Positions 16,495-24,543 of a stretch of DNA of 45,740 nt are shown here, piece after piece. Source of the stretch: Holophagaceae bacterium (GTDB taxonomy: Bacteria > Acidobacteriota > Holophagae > Holophagales > Holophagaceae); the NCBI GenBank assembly GCA_003165415.1, contig PLUC01000074.1, forward strand, positions 1-45,740. The letters run 5' to 3'. The translations under genes were made by a program, and so were the position numbers. Below the pieces are notes generated by a model. That model was not told where the DNA came from. It ran no database searches and saw nothing but the letters and a program-made list of their open reading frames with translations. Positions within the stretch are counted from its first letter, which is position 1. Each line of letters begins with the position of its first letter.

Positions 16495-17811
16495 GTGTCA
16501 CGGTGTTACTTCATCCCAATCCAGCTGCTTGACCGAGTCCAACTGACCGGAATGCTTGCCTCGCTGGCGAGGGACACCAAGGTGGAAAGCGAGACCCGCG
16601 GCACCGTCGCCCGGATCCTCGAGGACGTGCGCCTGGAGGGGCTGGATGCGGTGTTCCGGCTCACCCGGGAACTGGACGGGGTTTCCCTGGACGTCGGCAG
16701 CTTCAGGGTGGACCCCCGAGCCGCCCGGGCGGCCCTGGCCGGCCTGCGGGTCAGCAATCCGGACCTCATCGGCGACCTTGAAGGCATGCTGGAAGGCATC
16801 CGCCGGTTCGCCCACGCACAAAAATCGGCCCTGCGCGACGTGGATCTGCAGCTGCCCGGCGGCGGCAGGGCCCGGGAGCGCTGGCTGCCCATGCGCACCG
16901 CCGGCGTCTACATCCCCGGCGGCCGGGCCTTCTATCCCTCGACCCTGGCCATGACCGTGATCCCGGCCCAGGTGGCCGGGGTGGCGCGGATCGTAGGGGT
17001 CACCCCGCCCAAGGCCGGCGGGCCCGATCCCCTGGTGCTGGCCACCGCCGCGCTGCTGGAACTGGAAGAGCTCTACACCGTGGGCGGCGCCCAGGCGGTG
17101 GGCTGGATGGTGTTCGGCGAACCCCGGGTGGACCTGGTGGCCGGACCCGGCAACCGCTTCGTGGCCGAGGCCAAGCGCCAGCTGGTGGGCAGCTGCGGCA
17201 TCGATTCCGTGGCCGGGCCTTCGGAGGTGCTGGTGATCGCCGACGCCGGCGCCGACCCCGCCACCGTGGCCGAGGACCTGCTGGCCCAGGCCGAGCACGA
17301 TCCCGACGCCGCGGCGGTGCTGGTGTCCGCCGACCCCGGGCTGCTCGCGGCGGTGGCCGGGATCCTGGCCGAACGGGTCCAGGCCAGCCCGCGCCGGACC
17401 ATCCTGGAAGCCAGCCTGGGCCGCCACGGCCGCCTCATCCAGGCCGACCGGGAAATGGCGGTGGCCTTCGCCCAGGCCTGGGCCCCCGAGCACCTGGAGT
17501 TGTCGGTGGTGGACCCCGAGGCCTGGCTGCCCCTGCTCACCACCGCCGGCGCCGTGTTCATGGGCGAGACCAGCGCCGAGGTGTTCGGCGACTACGGCGC
17601 AGGACCCAACCACGTCCTGCCCACCGGCGGTTCCGGCCGGTTCTCCAGCCCCCTGGGGGTGGCCACCTTCATGAAGCGACAGACGGTCCTGGAACTGGAC
17701 CCGGCCCTGGCCGGCACCCTGGCGCCGCGGGTGGCCCGCCTGGCCGAGGCCGAGGGCCTGGTCCACCACGCGCAAAGCGCCCGCCGCCGTGCCCTCCGGC
17801 ATCATTCCTAG
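16495..17811 (+). CDS. hisD: Histidinol dehydrogenase
   Basis: HisD oxidises L-histidinol to L-histidine in two NAD-dependent steps, the last in the pathway. The 438-residue protein shows GVYIPGGRAFYPSTLAM, AGPGNRFVAEAKRQL, the zinc/substrate block LAQAEHDPDA (Gln and His), the base pair Glu-His in WAPEHLEL, FGDYGAGPNHVLPT with the ligand Asp, and the C-terminal EAEGLVHHAQS. Start is GTG at 16495; there is no clear ribosome-binding site, and ATG at 16552 is a shorter alternative that would cut into the conserved N-terminus. First gene of the his operon; the next start is 66 bp downstream. Confidence 0.94.
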   Translation: MSRCYFIPIQLLDRVQLTGMLASLARDTKVESETRGTVARILEDVRLEGLDAVFRLTRELDGVSLDVGSFRVDPRAARAALAGLRVSNPDLIGDLEGMLEGIRRFAHAQKSALRDVDLQLPGGGRARERWLPMRTAGVYIPGGRAFYPSTLAMTVIPAQVAGVARIVGVTPPKAGGPDPLVLATAALLELEELYTVGGAQAVGWMVFGEPRVDLVAGPGNRFVAEAKRQLVGSCGIDSVAGPSEVLVIADAGADPATVAEDLLAQAEHDPDAAAVLVSADPGLLAAVAGILAERVQASPRRTILEASLGRHGRLIQADREMAVAFAQAWAPEHLELSVVDPEAWLPLLTTAGAVFMGETSAEVFGDYGAGPNHVLPTGGSGRFSSPLGVATFMKRQTVLELDPALAGTLAPRVARLAEAEGLVHHAQSARRRALRHHS

Positions 17812-17877: not shown

Positions 17878-19647
17878 ATGCCCCTGATCCGACCTGAATT
17901 CCAGCAGCTTCGCGGCTATGTCCGCCCCCAGGGCGAGGCCAGGGGCCAGGCCATGGCCCGGCTGCACCTGAACGAAGCCGCCAAGGGCTGGCCGGACAGC
18001 GCCCGGCAGGCGCTCCTGGCCCGCCTGGGCAGCCAGTGCTTCCAGAACTACCCCGAGCGCCAGGAGGAACTCACCCATCGGCTGGTCCAGAGCCTCGGCG
18101 CGCCGGAGGGCGGCGTGCTGCTGGGTCCGTCCAGCGGGGCGCTGCTGGACCTGGTGGTGCTGGCCGGCGTGGCGCCCGGGGAAGCGGCGGCCTTTCCGGA
18201 GCCGGGCTTCAGCCTGTATCCGGCCCTGGCGGCCCGGCACGGGGTCCGGCCGGTGCCGGTGGCGGTGGGCGACGGCTGGACCCTGGAGCCCTGGCTGGAG
18301 CTGCTGGAACAGGCTCCCCCCCGCCAACTCTGGATCACCCTGCCCAACAACCCCACCGGCGCCTGGCTCTCCCCCGGGGAGCTGGAGCCCCTGCTCCAGG
18401 CCGCTTTGCGCTGCCCGGATCCGCCCCTGGTGGTGCTGGACGAGGCCTACGCTGAGTTCGCCCCGCTCACCCACCGCCTGGCCGTGGACCGCTACCCCAA
18501 CCTGATCCTGCTGCGCACCTTCAGCAAGGCCCTGGCCAGCGCCGGCTGGCGCCTGGGCTACCTCATCGGCGCCCCGGAGCTGATCGCCCCCCTGGCCGCC
18601 CTGCAGCTGCCCTTCAGCATCCCCGCCCCGGCCCTGGAAGCCCTGGACGTGGCCCTGGACTTCAAGGCCGCCTTCGCCCGGCAGGCCCGGGAAGTGCCCG
18701 AGCGCCGGGAGCGCCTGGCCGCCGCCCTGGGCGCGCGGGTCGCCGCCCGCAGCGCGGCCAATTTCCTGTTCCTGCGTCCCGACCCCGGCCCCGAACTGAA
18801 GGCGGCCGGGATCCTGTCCCGGGCCCTGCCGGAGCTGGGCGCGGGGCGGGTCACCGTGGGCACCGAAGCCGAGGCCCGGCGCACCGCCGAAGCCCTGGGC
18901 GCCGGCCTGGCGGAACCCCAGCCCCGGGGTCCGCGCCGGCTGCTGGCCCTGGACATGGACGGGGTCCTGGTGGACGGCGACCCCGGCTTCATGAACGCGG
19001 TGGCCAAGGCCCTGGCCGAGCTGGTGCCGGGCCTGCCCTGGATGGACGCCCACTACCTGGGCTTCAAGCAGGTGGCCGGCTTCAACAACGACTACCGGGT
19101 CTGCGCCGCGGCCGTGGCCCTGGCCGAGCGGGGCGAGCTGGACCGGCTCTGGACCGCCCAGGGCACCGGATTCCCCGACCTGGAGGAGCGCATCCAGGCC
19201 CTGGAGCCCGGCTGCGCGGAGGCCGTGGTGCGCGCCTACAAGTCGGTGCCGGTGCCGGACACCCCCCTGGTCACCCTGGCGGAGCTGGAAGCCCTGGGCT
19301 GGGACCTGGCGGTGCTCACCGGGCGCAACGACGAGGAGATGGAATCGGGCTTCCAGGTGCTGGGCTTCCGCCTGCCGGCGGTGGCCGACCGCGCCCCGCA
19401 CCTGCGCAAGCCCCAGCCTGGAGGCCTGCTGCAGCTGGCCGACGCGTTCCAGGCCGAGGAGATCGTGTTCGTGGGCGACACCCGGGATGACGCCATGGCC
19501 CTGCGCCTGGCCCGGGAAGCCCGGCCCGACCTGGTGTGGACCTTCGCCGCGGTGGGACCGCAGCGGGACGCCATCGCCAGGGAAGGGGACCTGCGGGCCC
19601 CCAGCCTCAGAGCCCTGCTGTCCGTCCTGAAAGGAGCGCCGAAATGA
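17878..19647 (+). CDS. hisC: Histidinol-phosphate aminotransferase fused to a HAD-family phosphatase domain
   Basis: Residues 1 to about 345 are a HisC-type fold-I PLP aminotransferase: NYPERQEEL, LPNNPTGAWLS, DEAYAEF, and RTFSKALASAGWRLGY with the PLP lysine at 217. From about 352 to 589 a HAD hydrolase follows with motif I LDMDGVLVD (Asp359, Asp361), motif II LTGR (Thr481), motif III Lys511 (LRKPQPG) and motif IV VGDTRDDA (Asp534, Asp537/538). All four catalytic motifs are intact. The aminotransferase makes histidinol phosphate; the HAD part is well placed to dephosphorylate it, since no HisN or HisB-N phosphatase appears in this operon. ATG at 17878 has AGAGGA just upstream. The stop overlaps hisB (ATGA). 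The phosphatase role is inference. Confidence 0.9.
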   Translation: MPLIRPEFQQLRGYVRPQGEARGQAMARLHLNEAAKGWPDSARQALLARLGSQCFQNYPERQEELTHRLVQSLGAPEGGVLLGPSSGALLDLVVLAGVAPGEAAAFPEPGFSLYPALAARHGVRPVPVAVGDGWTLEPWLELLEQAPPRQLWITLPNNPTGAWLSPGELEPLLQAALRCPDPPLVVLDEAYAEFAPLTHRLAVDRYPNLILLRTFSKALASAGWRLGYLIGAPELIAPLAALQLPFSIPAPALEALDVALDFKAAFARQAREVPERRERLAAALGARVAARSAANFLFLRPDPGPELKAAGILSRALPELGAGRVTVGTEAEARRTAEALGAGLAEPQPRGPRRLLALDMDGVLVDGDPGFMNAVAKALAELVPGLPWMDAHYLGFKQVAGFNNDYRVCAAAVALAERGELDRLWTAQGTGFPDLEERIQALEPGCAEAVVRAYKSVPVPDTPLVTLAELEALGWDLAVLTGRNDEEMESGFQVLGFRLPAVADRAPHLRKPQPGGLLQLADAFQAEEIVFVGDTRDDAMALRLAREARPDLVWTFAAVGPQRDAIAREGDLRAPSLRALLSVLKGAPK

Positions 19648-20228
19648 GAACCGCCTCGCTGGAACGCGTCACCGGAGAAACCAGGGTGCGGGTCGCCCTG
19701 GATTTGGACGGCGGCCCCGCTCGGGTCGCCACCGGCCTGGCATTTTTCGACCACATGCTGATGCAGCTGGCCAGGCACGGCGGCCTGGGGCTGGAGGTGG
19801 AGGCCACCGGCGACCTGGAAGTGGACGGCCACCACCTGGTGGAGGACGTGGGCCTGTGCCTGGGCGAGGCCCTGAAGGCGGCCCTGGGCGACAAGGCCGG
19901 CATCGCCCGGTTCGGCGAGGCCCACGTGCCCCTGGACGAATCCCTGGCCCGGGTGGTCATCGACCTGTCCGGGCGGCCCTGGTGCCGCTACGACGTCAAG
20001 CTGCCGGCGCTGATCCTGGGCAACGGCTTCCACCCCGAGCTGGCCCGGGAGTTCTTCATTGCCTTCGCCCAGCGCGGCGCCTTCGACCTGCACGCCACCA
20101 TCCTCTACGGCGAGAACACCCACCACCAGCTGGAGGCCCTGTTCAAGGCCCTGGCCGTGGCCCTCAAGCGCGCCCTCAAGCGGGAAGGGAACGACATTCC
20201 CTCCACCAAGGGCACGCTGACTTCCTAG
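19644..20228 (+). CDS. hisB: Imidazoleglycerol-phosphate dehydratase (monofunctional)
   Basis: The enzyme dehydrates IGP to imidazole-acetol phosphate. The 194-residue protein is of the single-function type, without the N-terminal HAD phosphatase of enterobacterial HisB. Metal-binding repeats are visible: FFDHMLMQLARHGGL, GHHLVEDVGLCLGEAL, and the second half NTHHQLEALFKALA. Usual motif residues His-His, Glu-Asp and Lys are kept. The ATG overlaps the hisC-HAD stop by 4 bp, so the HAD domain and the dehydratase remain neighbours as in fused HisB. Confidence 0.96.
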   Translation: MRTASLERVTGETRVRVALDLDGGPARVATGLAFFDHMLMQLARHGGLGLEVEATGDLEVDGHHLVEDVGLCLGEALKAALGDKAGIARFGEAHVPLDESLARVVIDLSGRPWCRYDVKLPALILGNGFHPELAREFFIAFAQRGAFDLHATILYGENTHHQLEALFKALAVALKRALKREGNDIPSTKGTLTS

Positions 20229-20236
20229 GAGTCCCC

Positions 20237-20845
20237 ATGATCACGCTCATCGACTACGGCGCCGGCAACCTGCACTCCCTGCAGGGCGCCCTCACCCGTC
20301 TGGGGTTCAAGAGCATCCGCGCCGTGACCCCCGCCGACGCTCCGGAATCCGGCACCCTGGTCCTGCCCGGGGTCGGCCACTTCACCGCGGCCCGGGCCGC
20401 GCTGGTGGCGCGCGGCTGGTGGGACGTGCTGCCGGGCATGGCGGCCACGCGCCCCCTGCTGGGCATCTGCCTGGGCCTGCAGCTGCTGGCCGAAGGCAGC
20501 GAGGAGAGCCCCGGCGCCACCGGCCTGGGCCTGGTGCCCGGCATGTCCCGGCTGCTGGGTCCCGGGGTCAAAGTGCCGAACATGGGCTGGGCCAAGGTGA
20601 AGGCGCGCATGGCCCACCCCGCGCTCCCGGATTTCAAGGAGGACTGGCTCTACTTCGTGCACAGCTACGCCTTGGACACCGACGGCGAGACCGTCCTGGA
20701 ATCCACCCACGGCCGGCCCTTCTCGGCCATGCAGGCCCGGGGCCGGGTGCTGGGCTTCCAGGGCCACCCGGAGAAGTCCGGACCTTTTGGCGAAAGCCTG
20801 CTGCGGGGCGTGCTGGGCTGGATGGGGGAGGTCCCGTGCGCCTGA
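20237..20845 (+). CDS. hisH: Imidazole glycerol phosphate synthase, glutaminase subunit
   Basis: HisH hydrolyses glutamine and channels ammonia to HisF. Class I glutamine amidotransferase in 202 residues, with nucleophile Cys in LLGICLGLQLLAEGS, oxyanion-associated LPGVGHF and the His/Glu of QGHPEKS. YGAGNLHSL at the N-terminus is diagnostic. A GGAG site 8 bp upstream supports ATG at 20237. It overlaps hisA by 10 bp. Confidence 0.96.
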   Translation: MITLIDYGAGNLHSLQGALTRLGFKSIRAVTPADAPESGTLVLPGVGHFTAARAALVARGWWDVLPGMAATRPLLGICLGLQLLAEGSEESPGATGLGLVPGMSRLLGPGVKVPNMGWAKVKARMAHPALPDFKEDWLYFVHSYALDTDGETVLESTHGRPFSAMQARGRVLGFQGHPEKSGPFGESLLRGVLGWMGEVPCA

Positions 20846-21552
20846 TCCCCTCCATGGACCTCCTGGGCGGCCAAGTGGTGCGCCTGCTCAAGGGCGAACG
20901 CAATACCGCCTTCGTCTACCCCTTCACCCCCGAAGCCTGGATCAAGCGCCTGGTGGACGCCGGCGCCCGGCGCATCCACCTGGTGGACCTGGATGCGGCA
21001 TTTGGCGAAGGGCCCCAGGAGAAGCTGCGCGGCTTCGCGAAGGCCTGGCCCGGGGTGCGCTTCCAGCTGGGCGGAGGCCTGCGCTCCCGGGAAGCGGTGC
21101 TGAAGGTCCAGGCCGACGGCTTCGACGCCGTGGTGGGCACCCTGGCCCTGGAGACCCCCGAGGCGCTCCAGGGCCTGGACCCGTCCCGGCTCATCGCCGC
21201 CCTGGACCTGCGCCACGGCGCCCCGGTGGTGCGCGGCTGGACCAAGGCCTCGCCCCTGTCCCTGGAAGCGGTATCCGCGCCACTGCGCGACCTGGGGGTT
21301 CCACTGGCCCTGGTCACCGATGTGGAGCGGGACGGCGCCATGACCGGTCCGGGCGTCGAGGCGCTGGCCCTGGTGGCCGCCCAGGGCTTCCGGGTGCAGG
21401 CCTCCGGCGGGCTGCGCGACCTGTCCGACCTTGCCCTGATCGCCGGGGTGGCGGAATCCGCCATTTCCGGAAAAGCCCTGCTGGATGGGCGCATGCTGCC
21501 GGAGGATCCGGCGGTGCGGGAGGCCATGGCCGCCCCTGAAGGAGTCGACTGA
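20836..21552 (+). CDS. hisA: ProFAR isomerase
   Basis: HisA catalyses the Amadori isomerisation of ProFAR to PRFAR. The 238-residue TIM barrel carries Asp8 in PSMDLLGGQVVRL, LGGGLRS, ALDLRHG with the second catalytic Asp, TDVERDGAMTGP and QASGGLRDLSDL, showing the half-barrel duplication shared with HisF. PSMD replaces the more common PAID. GTG start at 20836 after GGGGGAGG; overlaps the hisH end by 10 bp and hisF by 1 bp (TGATG). Confidence 0.95.
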   Translation: MRLIPSMDLLGGQVVRLLKGERNTAFVYPFTPEAWIKRLVDAGARRIHLVDLDAAFGEGPQEKLRGFAKAWPGVRFQLGGGLRSREAVLKVQADGFDAVVGTLALETPEALQGLDPSRLIAALDLRHGAPVVRGWTKASPLSLEAVSAPLRDLGVPLALVTDVERDGAMTGPGVEALALVAAQGFRVQASGGLRDLSDLALIAGVAESAISGKALLDGRMLPEDPAVREAMAAPEGVD

Positions 21553-22304
21553 TGGCCGCCAAACGCATCATCCCCTGCCTCGACGTCAAGGACGCCCGGG
21601 TGGTCAAGGGCATCAACTTCAAGGGCCTCCGGGACATGGGGCACCCCGCCGAGATGGGCGTGCGCTACGGGCTGGAGGGCGCCGACGAGCTGGTGTTCCT
21701 GGACATCGTCGCCTCCGAGGAGGGCCGCACCACCCGGGAAGCCTGGGTCTCGGAAGTGGCCGGCACCCTGAGCATCCCCTTCACCGTGGGCGGCGGCGTC
21801 GCCAGCGTGGAGGGCATCCGCCGGCTGCTGCGGGCCGGAGCCGACAAGGTGGCGCTCAACACCGCCGCCGTGGCCGATCCCGGCCTGGTCACCGAGGCCG
21901 CCGCGGCCTTCGGCCGCCAGTGCGTGGTGGTGGCCGTGGACGTGGCCCGGGATCCCAAGCTGGGCTGGCGGGTGTTCGTCAAGGGCGGCAACGTCCCCAC
22001 CGAGCGCGACGCCGCCTCCTGGCTGCGCGAGCTGGAAGACCGGGGCGCGGGCGAGATCCTGCTCACCTCCATCGACCGGGACGGCACCGAGCTGGGCTTC
22101 GACCTGGACATCCTGGACACCGCCAACGGCCTGTCCATCCCGGTGATCGCCTCGGGCGGCGCGGGAACCCGCGAGCACTTCCTGGAGGCCTTCCGGCACG
22201 GGGCCGAAGGGGCGCTGGCCGCCACCCTGTTCCACGAGGAGCGGCTGCGCATTTCCGAACTGAAGACCTATCTGGCCCAAGAGGGCATCGAGGTAAGACC
22301 GTGA
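21552..22304 (+). CDS. hisF: Imidazole glycerol phosphate synthase, cyclase subunit
   Basis: HisF joins ammonia from HisH with PRFAR, giving IGP and AICAR. It is a 250-residue barrel with Asp11 in PCLDVKDARVVKG, FTVGGGVAS, VVAVDVARDPK (second Asp), LTSIDRDGTELGFD and ASGGAGTREHF. The start overlaps the hisA stop by one base and its stop overlaps the GTG of hisIE (GTGA). Confidence 0.97.
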   Translation: MAAKRIIPCLDVKDARVVKGINFKGLRDMGHPAEMGVRYGLEGADELVFLDIVASEEGRTTREAWVSEVAGTLSIPFTVGGGVASVEGIRRLLRAGADKVALNTAAVADPGLVTEAAAAFGRQCVVVAVDVARDPKLGWRVFVKGGNVPTERDAASWLRELEDRGAGEILLTSIDRDGTELGFDLDILDTANGLSIPVIASGGAGTREHFLEAFRHGAEGALAATLFHEERLRISELKTYLAQEGIEVRP

Positions 22305-22924
22305 GCATTCCCGCGATGGACAAGATCAAGTTCGGGCCCCAGGGCCTGATTCCGGCGGTGGTGCAGGCCCCCGGCGGCGAAGTGCGCATGGTCGGCTACA
22401 TGAGCGCCGAGGCCCTGGCCCTCACCCTGGAGACCGGCTGGGTCACCTTCTGGAGCCGCAGCCGCAACCAGCTCTGGGTCAAGGGCGAGACCAGCGGCAA
22501 CCGGCTCCGGTTCCTGGACGCCTTCCTGGACTGCGACGGCGACACCCTGCTGGTGCTGGCCGAGCCCCAGGGGCCCACCTGCCACCGGGGCACGCCCTCC
22601 TGCTTCGACGGCCTGGCCCCGGTGGCCTGGCTGGGCCACCTGCAGGACACCCTGAAGCAGCGCAAGGCCGGCGCCGGCCCCGACGGCAGCTACACCCAGA
22701 AGCTGTTCCACCGCGGCCCCGAGCGCATCGGCAAGAAGGTGGTGGAGGAGGCCGGGGAAGTGGCCATCGCCGCCATGGCCCTGCGCTTCGAGCCGACCCC
22801 GGCCCGGCGCGAGGACTTCATCAACGAGGCGGCCGACCTGCTGTTCCACCTGCAGGTGCTGCTGGTGGACCAGGGGCTCGGCCTGGAAGACCTGGCCGCG
22901 GCCCTCAAAGCCCGGCACAAGTAG
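22301..22924 (+). CDS. hisIE: Bifunctional phosphoribosyl-AMP cyclohydrolase / phosphoribosyl-ATP pyrophosphatase
   Basis: Two domains are fused in 207 residues. HisI (about 1-115) has VGYMSAEAL, VTFWSRSRNQLWVKGETSGN, the metal site DCDGD and the zinc Cys pair GPTCHRGTPSC. HisE (about 125-207) has FHRGPERIGKKVVEEAGEVAIAA and the acidic NEAADLLFHLQVLL, typical of all-alpha NTP pyrophosphatases. Together they carry out steps 2 and 3. GTG start coupled to hisF. Confidence 0.96.
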   Translation: MSIPAMDKIKFGPQGLIPAVVQAPGGEVRMVGYMSAEALALTLETGWVTFWSRSRNQLWVKGETSGNRLRFLDAFLDCDGDTLLVLAEPQGPTCHRGTPSCFDGLAPVAWLGHLQDTLKQRKAGAGPDGSYTQKLFHRGPERIGKKVVEEAGEVAIAAMALRFEPTPARREDFINEAADLLFHLQVLLVDQGLGLEDLAAALKARHK

Positions 22925-22933
22925 GACACGCCC

Positions 22934-23890
22934 ATGCCCACCCACACCCCCAGTTTCCCCGACCTGCTGTTCGACGACGCCGCCCGGCTGCGCCGCTGGG
23001 AGGCCCTGCTCATGGGCCACCTGGACAAAGCGGGCTACCGCGAGCTGCACCCCAGCCTGGTGATGCGCAACCCCACCAACCCGTCCACCGTGCGCTTCTT
23101 CGACGGCGACCAGCTGGTGGCGCTGCGCTGGGACTTCACCGAGGCCCTGGCCCGCACCCTGGTGCGCCGTTTCCAGGAGCCGCCCCGGCGCATCAGCTAC
23201 GCCGGCCCGGTGTTCCGCCGTCCGGCCAACTCCTGGGACCCGGTGGAGCGGCTGGAGGTGGGCTGCGAGCACATCCAGGTGGAGCGCGAGGAACGCACCG
23301 AGGCCGACCGCGAGCTGGCGCGGCTGCTCATGGCGGTCCCGGCCCTGCTGGGGCTGGAGGGCTGCCTGCTGCACATCGGCCACGCGGCCTTGCTGCGCCG
23401 CCCCATGGAAGCCGAGGGGATTCCCGCCGAGCTGGGCCTGGAAGTGGCCCGGGTGCTGGACCGGCGCGCCATCCACCGCGCCGCCGAGCTGCTGGACGGG
23501 CACCCGGCCAAGGCCCGGCTGCTGGCCCACGCCGAGATCCTGCTGTCCGGCCCCGACGGCCCCGGCAGCCTGGCGGACCTGGCCCGGGGCCCCTACGGCG
23601 GCCTGCTGGAGGCCGAGGCCGAGCAGCTGGCCCGGGTGCTGAGCGTGCTGTCCAAACAGCTGCCCAAGGGCCTCACCCTGCGCCTGGACCTGGGCGACCT
23701 GCGCGGCCTGGCCTTCTACACCGGCCCGACCCTGCGCCTGTGGGCCCCCGGCGCCCAGCGCGAGCTGGCCTCGGGCGGCCGCTACGACGGCCTGTTCCCG
23801 GAAATGGGCCGGCCCTGGTACGCCGCCGGCTTCTGCGTGCGCCTCACCACCCTGCTGGAGCTGGGTGACAACCGCGAAGGTGGAAAATGA
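22934..23890 (+). CDS. hisZ: ATP phosphoribosyltransferase regulatory subunit HisZ
   Basis: HisZ is a catalytically inactive relative of histidyl-tRNA synthetase that binds histidine and is required by short-form HisG. The 318-residue protein shows class II motifs: LVMRNPTNPSTVRFFDGDQLVALRWDFT (motif 2-like region), RISYAGPVFRR, and SGGRYDGLFPEMGRPWYAAGF near the C-terminus. It is shorter than HisRS and lacks an anticodon-binding domain. GTGDN-type tail overlaps hisG by 4 bp. Confidence 0.9.
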   Translation: MPTHTPSFPDLLFDDAARLRRWEALLMGHLDKAGYRELHPSLVMRNPTNPSTVRFFDGDQLVALRWDFTEALARTLVRRFQEPPRRISYAGPVFRRPANSWDPVERLEVGCEHIQVEREERTEADRELARLLMAVPALLGLEGCLLHIGHAALLRRPMEAEGIPAELGLEVARVLDRRAIHRAAELLDGHPAKARLLAHAEILLSGPDGPGSLADLARGPYGGLLEAEAEQLARVLSVLSKQLPKGLTLRLDLGDLRGLAFYTGPTLRLWAPGAQRELASGGRYDGLFPEMGRPWYAAGFCVRLTTLLELGDNREGGK

Positions 23891-24543
23891 AGCCGCTGCT
23901 GATCGCCCTGCCCAAGGGCCGCCTGGAAGAGGAACTGCTGCCCCGCCTCAAGGGCAGCCGCTTCGAGCTGGACCCCCGCGCCCTCAAGTCGCGCAAGCTG
24001 CGCATCCCCATGGCCGACCCCGCCCTGGCGGCCATCCTGCTCAAGGGGGCGGACCTGCCCCGCTACGTGGCCGGCGGCGTGGCCGCCCTGGGCGTGGTCG
24101 GCTCGGACATCCTGGACGAGTGCCCGGTGGACCTCATGGAGCTGGCCGACCTGAACTTCGGCGTCTGCCGGCTGTCCCTGTGCGCCCCCGAACACACCAC
24201 CCTGGAGCAGCTGCGGCACCTGCCGCACCTGCGCATCGCCACCAAGTTCCTGGGCGCCACCGGCCGCTGGCTGCGCCAGGAGGGCATCACCGCCGAGCTG
24301 GTGCCCCTGCAGAGCAGCGTGGAACTGGCCCCGGTGCTGGGCCTGGCCGACGCCATCGTCGACCTGGTGCAGAGCGGCCGGACCCTGCAGGCCCATCACC
24401 TGGCGGAGTTCGCCACCCTGGGCAAGGCCTCGGCCCGGCTGGTGGCCTGCCGGGGCACCTTCCTCAGCGAGCCAGACCGCATTGGGCCCCTGGCCAAGGG
24501 GTTGGCCGAACTGCTGAAAGCGGAGCCGGCCCAGGCAGGGTGA
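23887..24543 (+). CDS. hisG: ATP phosphoribosyltransferase, short form
   Basis: HisG commits ATP and PRPP to histidine synthesis. The 218-residue protein is the short form, lacking the C-terminal regulatory domain, which fits the adjacent hisZ. Motifs: ALPKGRLEEELLP, the periplasmic-binding-protein-like VAALGVVGSDILDE, IATKFLGATGRWL, and the PRPP-binding region LADAIVDLVQSGRTL. It ends the operon and converges on a decayed minus-strand gene. Confidence 0.96.
   Translation: MKPLLIALPKGRLEEELLPRLKGSRFELDPRALKSRKLRIPMADPALAAILLKGADLPRYVAGGVAALGVVGSDILDECPVDLMELADLNFGVCRLSLCAPEHTTLEQLRHLPHLRIATKFLGATGRWLRQEGITAELVPLQSSVELAPVLGLADAIVDLVQSGRTLQAHHLAEFATLGKASARLVACRGTFLSEPDRIGPLAKGLAELLKAEPAQAG

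Follow-up and report, generated by a model that had tools for sequence, protein, structure and literature searches.

The histidine operon described here raises the question of which enzyme carries out step 8, the dephosphorylation of histidinol phosphate. The gene for this step is often missing from genome annotations, and HisN/histidinol-phosphate phosphatase is the commonest low-confidence step in GapMind, affecting 42 of 148 organisms (PMC7311316). The operon lies in a 45,740-nucleotide stretch (contig PLUC01000074.1, hereafter the window) of a MAG from the Holophagaceae, the Geothrix family of soil and sediment bacteria. An initial annotation had described the operon as entire but for a classical histidinol-phosphate phosphatase, which NCBIfam and Pfam searches bore out, and had proposed that a HAD domain fused to HisC fills this step. 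The gene order is hisD, hisC-HAD, hisB, hisH, hisA, hisF, hisIE, hisZ, hisG, and the features are as follows.

16495..17811, + strand: hisD, histidinol dehydrogenase (TIGR00069, 403.8 bits, over cut-off; PF00815)
17878..19647, + strand: hisC-HAD fusion gene, 589 aa plus stop (translation, Pfam, NCBIfam, homologue alignment)
17878..18897, + strand: HisC aminotransferase domain, residues 1-340, with PLP lysine K217 at 18526-18528 (PF00155 at 38-340; RTFSK; PDB matches)
18898..18933, + strand: short linker, residues 341-352, the gap between the two Pfam matches, variable among fused homologues
18934..19644, + strand: HAD phosphatase domain with C1 cap, residues 353-589 (PF00702; TIGR01548-like; AlphaFold pLDDT 93)
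18952-18960 (D359/D361), 19318 (T481), 19408 (K511) and 19477-19491 (D534/D538), + strand: HAD motif positions
19084-19092, + strand: cap signature N403-N404-D405
19644..20228, + strand: hisB, monofunctional IGP dehydratase without a HAD N-domain (NCBIfam, Pfam)
20237..20845, + strand: hisH with the catalytic GICLG cysteine (TIGR01855, 159 bits, over cut-off)
20836..21552, + strand: hisA, start approximate (TIGR00007)
21552..22304, + strand: hisF (TIGR00735, 313 bits)
22309..22924, + strand: hisIE, start approximate (PRK02759, 209 bits, over cut-off)
22934..23890, + strand: hisZ (TIGR00443)
23887..24543, + strand: hisG, short form (TIGR00070, 168 bits, over cut-off)

The start codon of the fusion ORF was consistent with an alignment of 14 homologues, and a GGAGAGG stretch lies 5′ of the ATG. 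Because the fusion gene and hisB share four nucleotides (ATGA, 19644-19647), the two are likely translationally coupled. Pfam placed Aminotran_1_2 at residues 38-340 (E 2.6e-36) and Hydrolase/HAD at residues 355-545 (E 1.7e-16). For the HisC half the top NCBIfam model was hisC TIGR01141 (E 5e-54), with a score of 183.4 bits that lies below the cut-off of 276.6. This half has the fold-type I aminotransferase domain and the PLP lysine, its top PDB matches were histidinol-phosphate aminotransferases, and its gene is flanked by hisD and hisB here as in relatives. The RTFSK motif with K217 was invariant in the 15 fused homologues aligned.

The HAD half was found where the initial annotation had placed it, with all four motifs correctly located and numbered, and D538 is also present. 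D359, D361, K511, D534 and D538 were invariant among 45 diverse HAD homologues, as were N403 and D405 of the cap signature GxN[ND]D. Position 481 is T or S in this set, and position 461 is E in 44 of the 45 and D in the window protein. The four catalytic motifs, together with a helical cap between motifs I and II, identify the domain as a C1-cap (subfamily I) HAD. In its AlphaFold model helices 18-106 sit between strand 4-8 and strand 126-130, and the Foldseek matches were HADs of the C1-cap kind. The model of the full-length fusion had a pLDDT of 78 and a pTM of 0.72. The suggested comparison with TIGR01548 (HAD-SF-IA-hyp1, an NCBIfam hypothetical equivalog with no assigned function) succeeded in part: this was the top named model (E 2.4e-12, 193 of 197 positions matched), but the score of 46.8 bits fell far under the curated cut-off of 140.2, and we therefore call the domain TIGR01548-like rather than a member of the family. 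Homologues in other his operons reach the cut-off (G420, 146.5 bits) or nearly do so (G317, 130 bits). The domain is not a HisB-N (HAD-IIIA) phosphatase, as the C-terminal half matched TIGR01548 best and the genome-wide TIGR01656 matches did not include the fusion locus.

We surveyed 77 Holophagaceae genomes for the HAD and for HisD, which were found in 71 and 64 of them. All 64 HisD-positive genomes carried the HAD (nominal hypergeometric p 7e-6, uncorrected for relatedness). Both genes were absent from six genomes, three of them small (0.9-1.2 Mb), and seven had the HAD without HisD. Three of these seven (G023, G062, G065) may be incomplete genomes; the other four make up genus g11, apparently a genuine exception, whose HAD may serve a different or additional function, since HisD is lacking. 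The g11 HAD (L056, L057, L061, L066) has all motifs and is a separate gene in four different contexts, the L066 copy running off its contig end. The same two-domain ORF was present in about 55 Holophagaceae genomes, and the matches listed include the isolates Geothrix fermentans and G. oryzisoli.

Outside the family we examined 27 loci from Acidobacteriota and two Myxococcales. At 23 of these a homologous HAD lies in a his operon, either fused to hisC or between hisC and hisB, while four have no adjacent his genes. The fused operon recurs in one Myxococcales MAG (L120). The other Myxococcales genome (L122) and four members of Acidobacteriota family f5 (L125-L128) encode the HAD separately, with hisC on one side and hisB on the other; G317 (L129) shares this arrangement within an operon of different gene order. 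As a context-blind approach, 396 Acidobacteriota genomes were searched with TIGR01548 and 20 non-family matches were picked by score alone. Sixteen of the 20 belong to his operons, where the HAD either occupies the gap from hisC to hisB or forms part of a long ORF that precedes hisB. Pfam scans of seven long ORFs identified an aminotransferase-HAD fusion in every case; six of the seven were in his operons, and the remaining one, a 571-aa fusion in G082 (L142), had no adjacent his genes. In three genomes (G370, G377 and G428; L151-L153) the region between motifs I and II of the his-operon HAD is about 130 residues larger, with a match of ~319 rather than ~180 aa. A plasmid search for TIGR01548 relatives returned generic Rhizobium HADs only. 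The survey of relatives that the initial annotation had proposed thus tied the HAD to the histidine pathway, as would be expected of an EC 3.1.3.15 enzyme, both within the family (64/64) and beyond it (23/27).

In a tree of the aminotransferase halves the fused proteins fell into two deep clades, and a single fused clade was rejected (p-AU 0.005). Both deep clades of the HAD tree hold fused as well as separate forms. This topology implies at least two independent HisC-HAD fusions, or fission events. The Holophagaceae fusion likely derived from an f5-like hisC-HAD pair, and would have arisen by the joining of two genes already located between hisD and hisB.

The Holophagaceae also provide a natural experiment, in which HisC was lost or the operon replaced and the phosphatase was retained. 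Genus g4 has kept the native operon except for the HisC half; the HAD still lies between hisD and hisB, and an aminotransferase is encoded elsewhere. Genera g1 and g8 have an operon of a different type, hisG-C-B-H-F-A-D, whose HisD is 44-47% identical and which contains no phosphatase gene. We observed this replacement operon at L130-L132 (g1) and L055 (g8), and in the G070 copy hisC was also not detected. The g8 HAD is a separate gene ~2 kb from the replacement operon, and in g1 the HAD was kept in the old lpxC-linked locus. The window MAG itself has a second HAD of the same family on another contig (C190), where it is joined to a catalytically inactive HisC. At the relic locus of g1, HisC is without its lysine and both ends, HisH is without its cysteine and HisF is shortened, and the HAD has all motifs intact; in G066 the HisH and HisF remnants are gone and the HAD is retained. 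The activity kept each time HisC or the operon was lost is the one that the rest of the pathway is without.

Estimates of dN/dS (Nei-Gojobori) from three close genomes were 0.09-0.18 for the neighbouring LpxC and 0.21-0.27 for the HAD; the remnants gave 0.19-0.29 (HisH), 0.31-0.42 (HisC) and 0.40-0.55 (HisF). As the HisH remnant is under no less constraint than the HAD, selection at the relic locus is not peculiar to the HAD.

We next considered which other phosphatases could perform step 8. The window MAG is 4.84 Mb, 94% complete and 7.4% contaminated, and genome-wide profile searches of it found no clear HisN, HisJ or HisB-N. Its single IMPase family protein scored higher against SuhB (209 bits) than against HisN (159 bits, cut-off 275). 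Its two PHP proteins are DnaE and a nucleoside-bisphosphatase-like one, and its single strong HAD-IIIA protein matched GmhB best. In the complete (closed) relatives G036 and G066, too, neither HisN nor HisJ gave a strong match. Family f5 and G376 have, besides the TIGR01548-like HAD, PHP proteins that exceed the HisJ cut-off, those of f5 barely. We also considered mutual exclusion between the HAD and known histidinol-phosphate phosphatases and set it aside as weak support. The HisN and TIGR01548 sets were disjoint in the phylum (0/29 versus 62/396, nominal p 0.006), which is weak evidence because relatives are not independent, and the HisJ and TIGR01548 sets overlap in five Acidobacteriota genomes (p 0.18).

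From these data we conclude, with a probability of roughly 0.87, that the fusion protein is a bifunctional histidine enzyme whose HAD half performs step 8 as a histidinol-phosphate phosphatase. This sequence-based reading, which agrees with the initial annotation, draws on the gene context in many lineages, the repeated fusion, the retention of the HAD after loss of HisC or of the operon, and the lack of a clear alternative. Weighing against it are the g11 HAD without HisD, the two HADs in the window MAG, the HisJ-level PHP proteins of f5 and G376, the four of 27 outside loci away from his operons, the score under the TIGR01548 cut-off and the diverse specificity of the closest solved structure (see below).

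The HAD might instead act on another phosphate ester, with a scattered SuhB-like IMPase or GmhB-like HAD-IIIA protein doing step 8. Proteins of both kinds are encoded in the MAG and could have a side activity on histidinol phosphate; IMPase-like histidinol-phosphate phosphatases are known (PMC5516325), a common origin of hisN and gmhB has been proposed (PMC8305728), and g11 keeps the HAD in genomes without HisD. We consider this explanation unlikely, as it accounts neither for the position of the HAD in the hisC/hisB gap or fused to HisC in many lineages nor for its presence in every HisD-positive Holophagaceae genome, and the IMPase is closer to SuhB than to HisN and far below the HisN cut-off. 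Less probable again, and very unlikely in our estimate, is that the HAD is a housekeeping or damage-control phosphatase that removes by-products of HisC or PLP chemistry, linked to HisC and taking no part in the pathway. The HAD superfamily is promiscuous, which would suit such a role, as would the g11 genomes. However, the HAD stays in the native operon after the deletion of HisC in g4 and beside the replaced operons of g8 and g1, and a damage-control role would leave the pathway still without step 8.

Least probable of all, and in our view highly improbable, is that misassembly or contamination of the MAG produced the fusion. The contamination estimate of the bin and the absence of the operon from other g1 genomes would be in keeping with an artefact, whereas the purD and mutY genes of the window are closest to, and syntenic with, those of g1 genomes and the composition of the window agrees with other contigs of the bin, which rules out a contaminating contig. 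An assembly artefact was ruled out by the occurrence of the same ORF in about 55 Holophagaceae genomes, the isolates named above among them, and in the Myxococcales MAG.

If the HAD half is the step-8 enzyme, the HisC domain would convert imidazole-acetol phosphate to L-histidinol phosphate by transamination (step 7) and the HAD domain would dephosphorylate the latter to L-histidinol. By the usual HAD route, D359 would attack the phosphate with D361 as acid/base, T481 and K511 would hold the phosphoryl group, and D534/D538 would bind Mg2+. The acidic cap signature (N403, D405) probably aids substrate recognition, and its acidic residues may help to hold the positively charged imidazole/amino end of histidinol phosphate. 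The initial annotation had further suggested that the product passes from one active site to the other. We found no support for channelling as the reason for the fusion, because other his operons encode the HAD as a separate protein, and it is kept beside a dead HisC at the relic locus.

The proposed enzyme resembles the HisB N-domain of bifunctional HisNB in being a HAD-type phosphatase fused to another histidine enzyme. The HisB domain differs in belonging to subfamily IIIA (TIGR01261/TIGR01656) and in its partner, IGP dehydratase (step 6) rather than an aminotransferase. HisN (IMPase-type) and HisJ/HisK (PHP-type) would catalyse the same reaction with unrelated folds. The window gene joins a histidine enzyme to a HAD phosphatase from a different subclass than HisB-N, a fusion that we did not find described in the literature searched; the parts consulted of four histidine gene-fusion reviews (PMC1963479, PMC8305728, PMC11237513, PMC6029752) made no mention of a HisC-phosphatase fusion. 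The closest solved structure was Tt82, a HAD phosphatase of Thermococcus thioreducens (PDB 6iah; profile E 2.5e-15; fold E 3.4e-10, TM 0.68), which is stand-alone and 23% identical to the window HAD. In the passage of PMC9226320 that cites it, Tt82 is credited with diverse substrate specificity, which calls for caution in assigning a substrate to the window HAD.

TIGR01548 was over its cut-off in two of 14 control genomes, Haloferax volcanii and Synechococcus elongatus. Transposon disruption of the H. volcanii HAD hydrolase HVO_0431 resulted in histidine auxotrophy (PMC4300041), and a later paper put the gene forward to fill the histidinol-phosphatase gap (PMC8305020). HVO_0431 is likely the TIGR01548 match of H. 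volcanii, and on that condition the Haloferax genetics point the same way as our data. Like the window domain it is a HAD hydrolase proposed to fill a gap at the same step; unlike it, it is archaeal, and the hisC of H. volcanii lies in a lipid operon (PMC8305020). For S. elongatus, a novel HisN gap is on record (PMC7311316). On balance we lean towards a broader proposal, that TIGR01548-like HADs are a further widespread family of histidinol-phosphate phosphatases, present in much of the Acidobacteriota, some Myxococcota and, through TIGR01548 proper, cyanobacteria and haloarchaea, that fills many HisN gaps and underwent at least two independent fusions to HisC. A named, testable family for step 8 would close the annotation gap in many genomes, probably including that of S. 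elongatus.

Inspection of the relic and native loci yielded some further observations. The relic his locus beside lpxC occupies about 45.5-49.2 kb of contig C190 in the window MAG (G000; L048, L002) and was also seen in relatives (L049-L051, L105). It consists of the HisC remnant fused to the intact HAD, then HisH with GICLG changed to GINLG or GIGLG, then the short HisF, and all of its frames are open in G000, G067, G070 and UBA692. The open frames, together with the low dN/dS of the dead HisH, suggest that this protein may have acquired a new function that is not catalytic. When the window was compared with L133-L135, the native-type his operon was found to follow purD, with an RND efflux locus on its other side (window 14.2-29 kb). 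G067 and G070 have no his genes at the purD site and a different his operon elsewhere, which suggests that the his operon moved or was regained in the window lineage.
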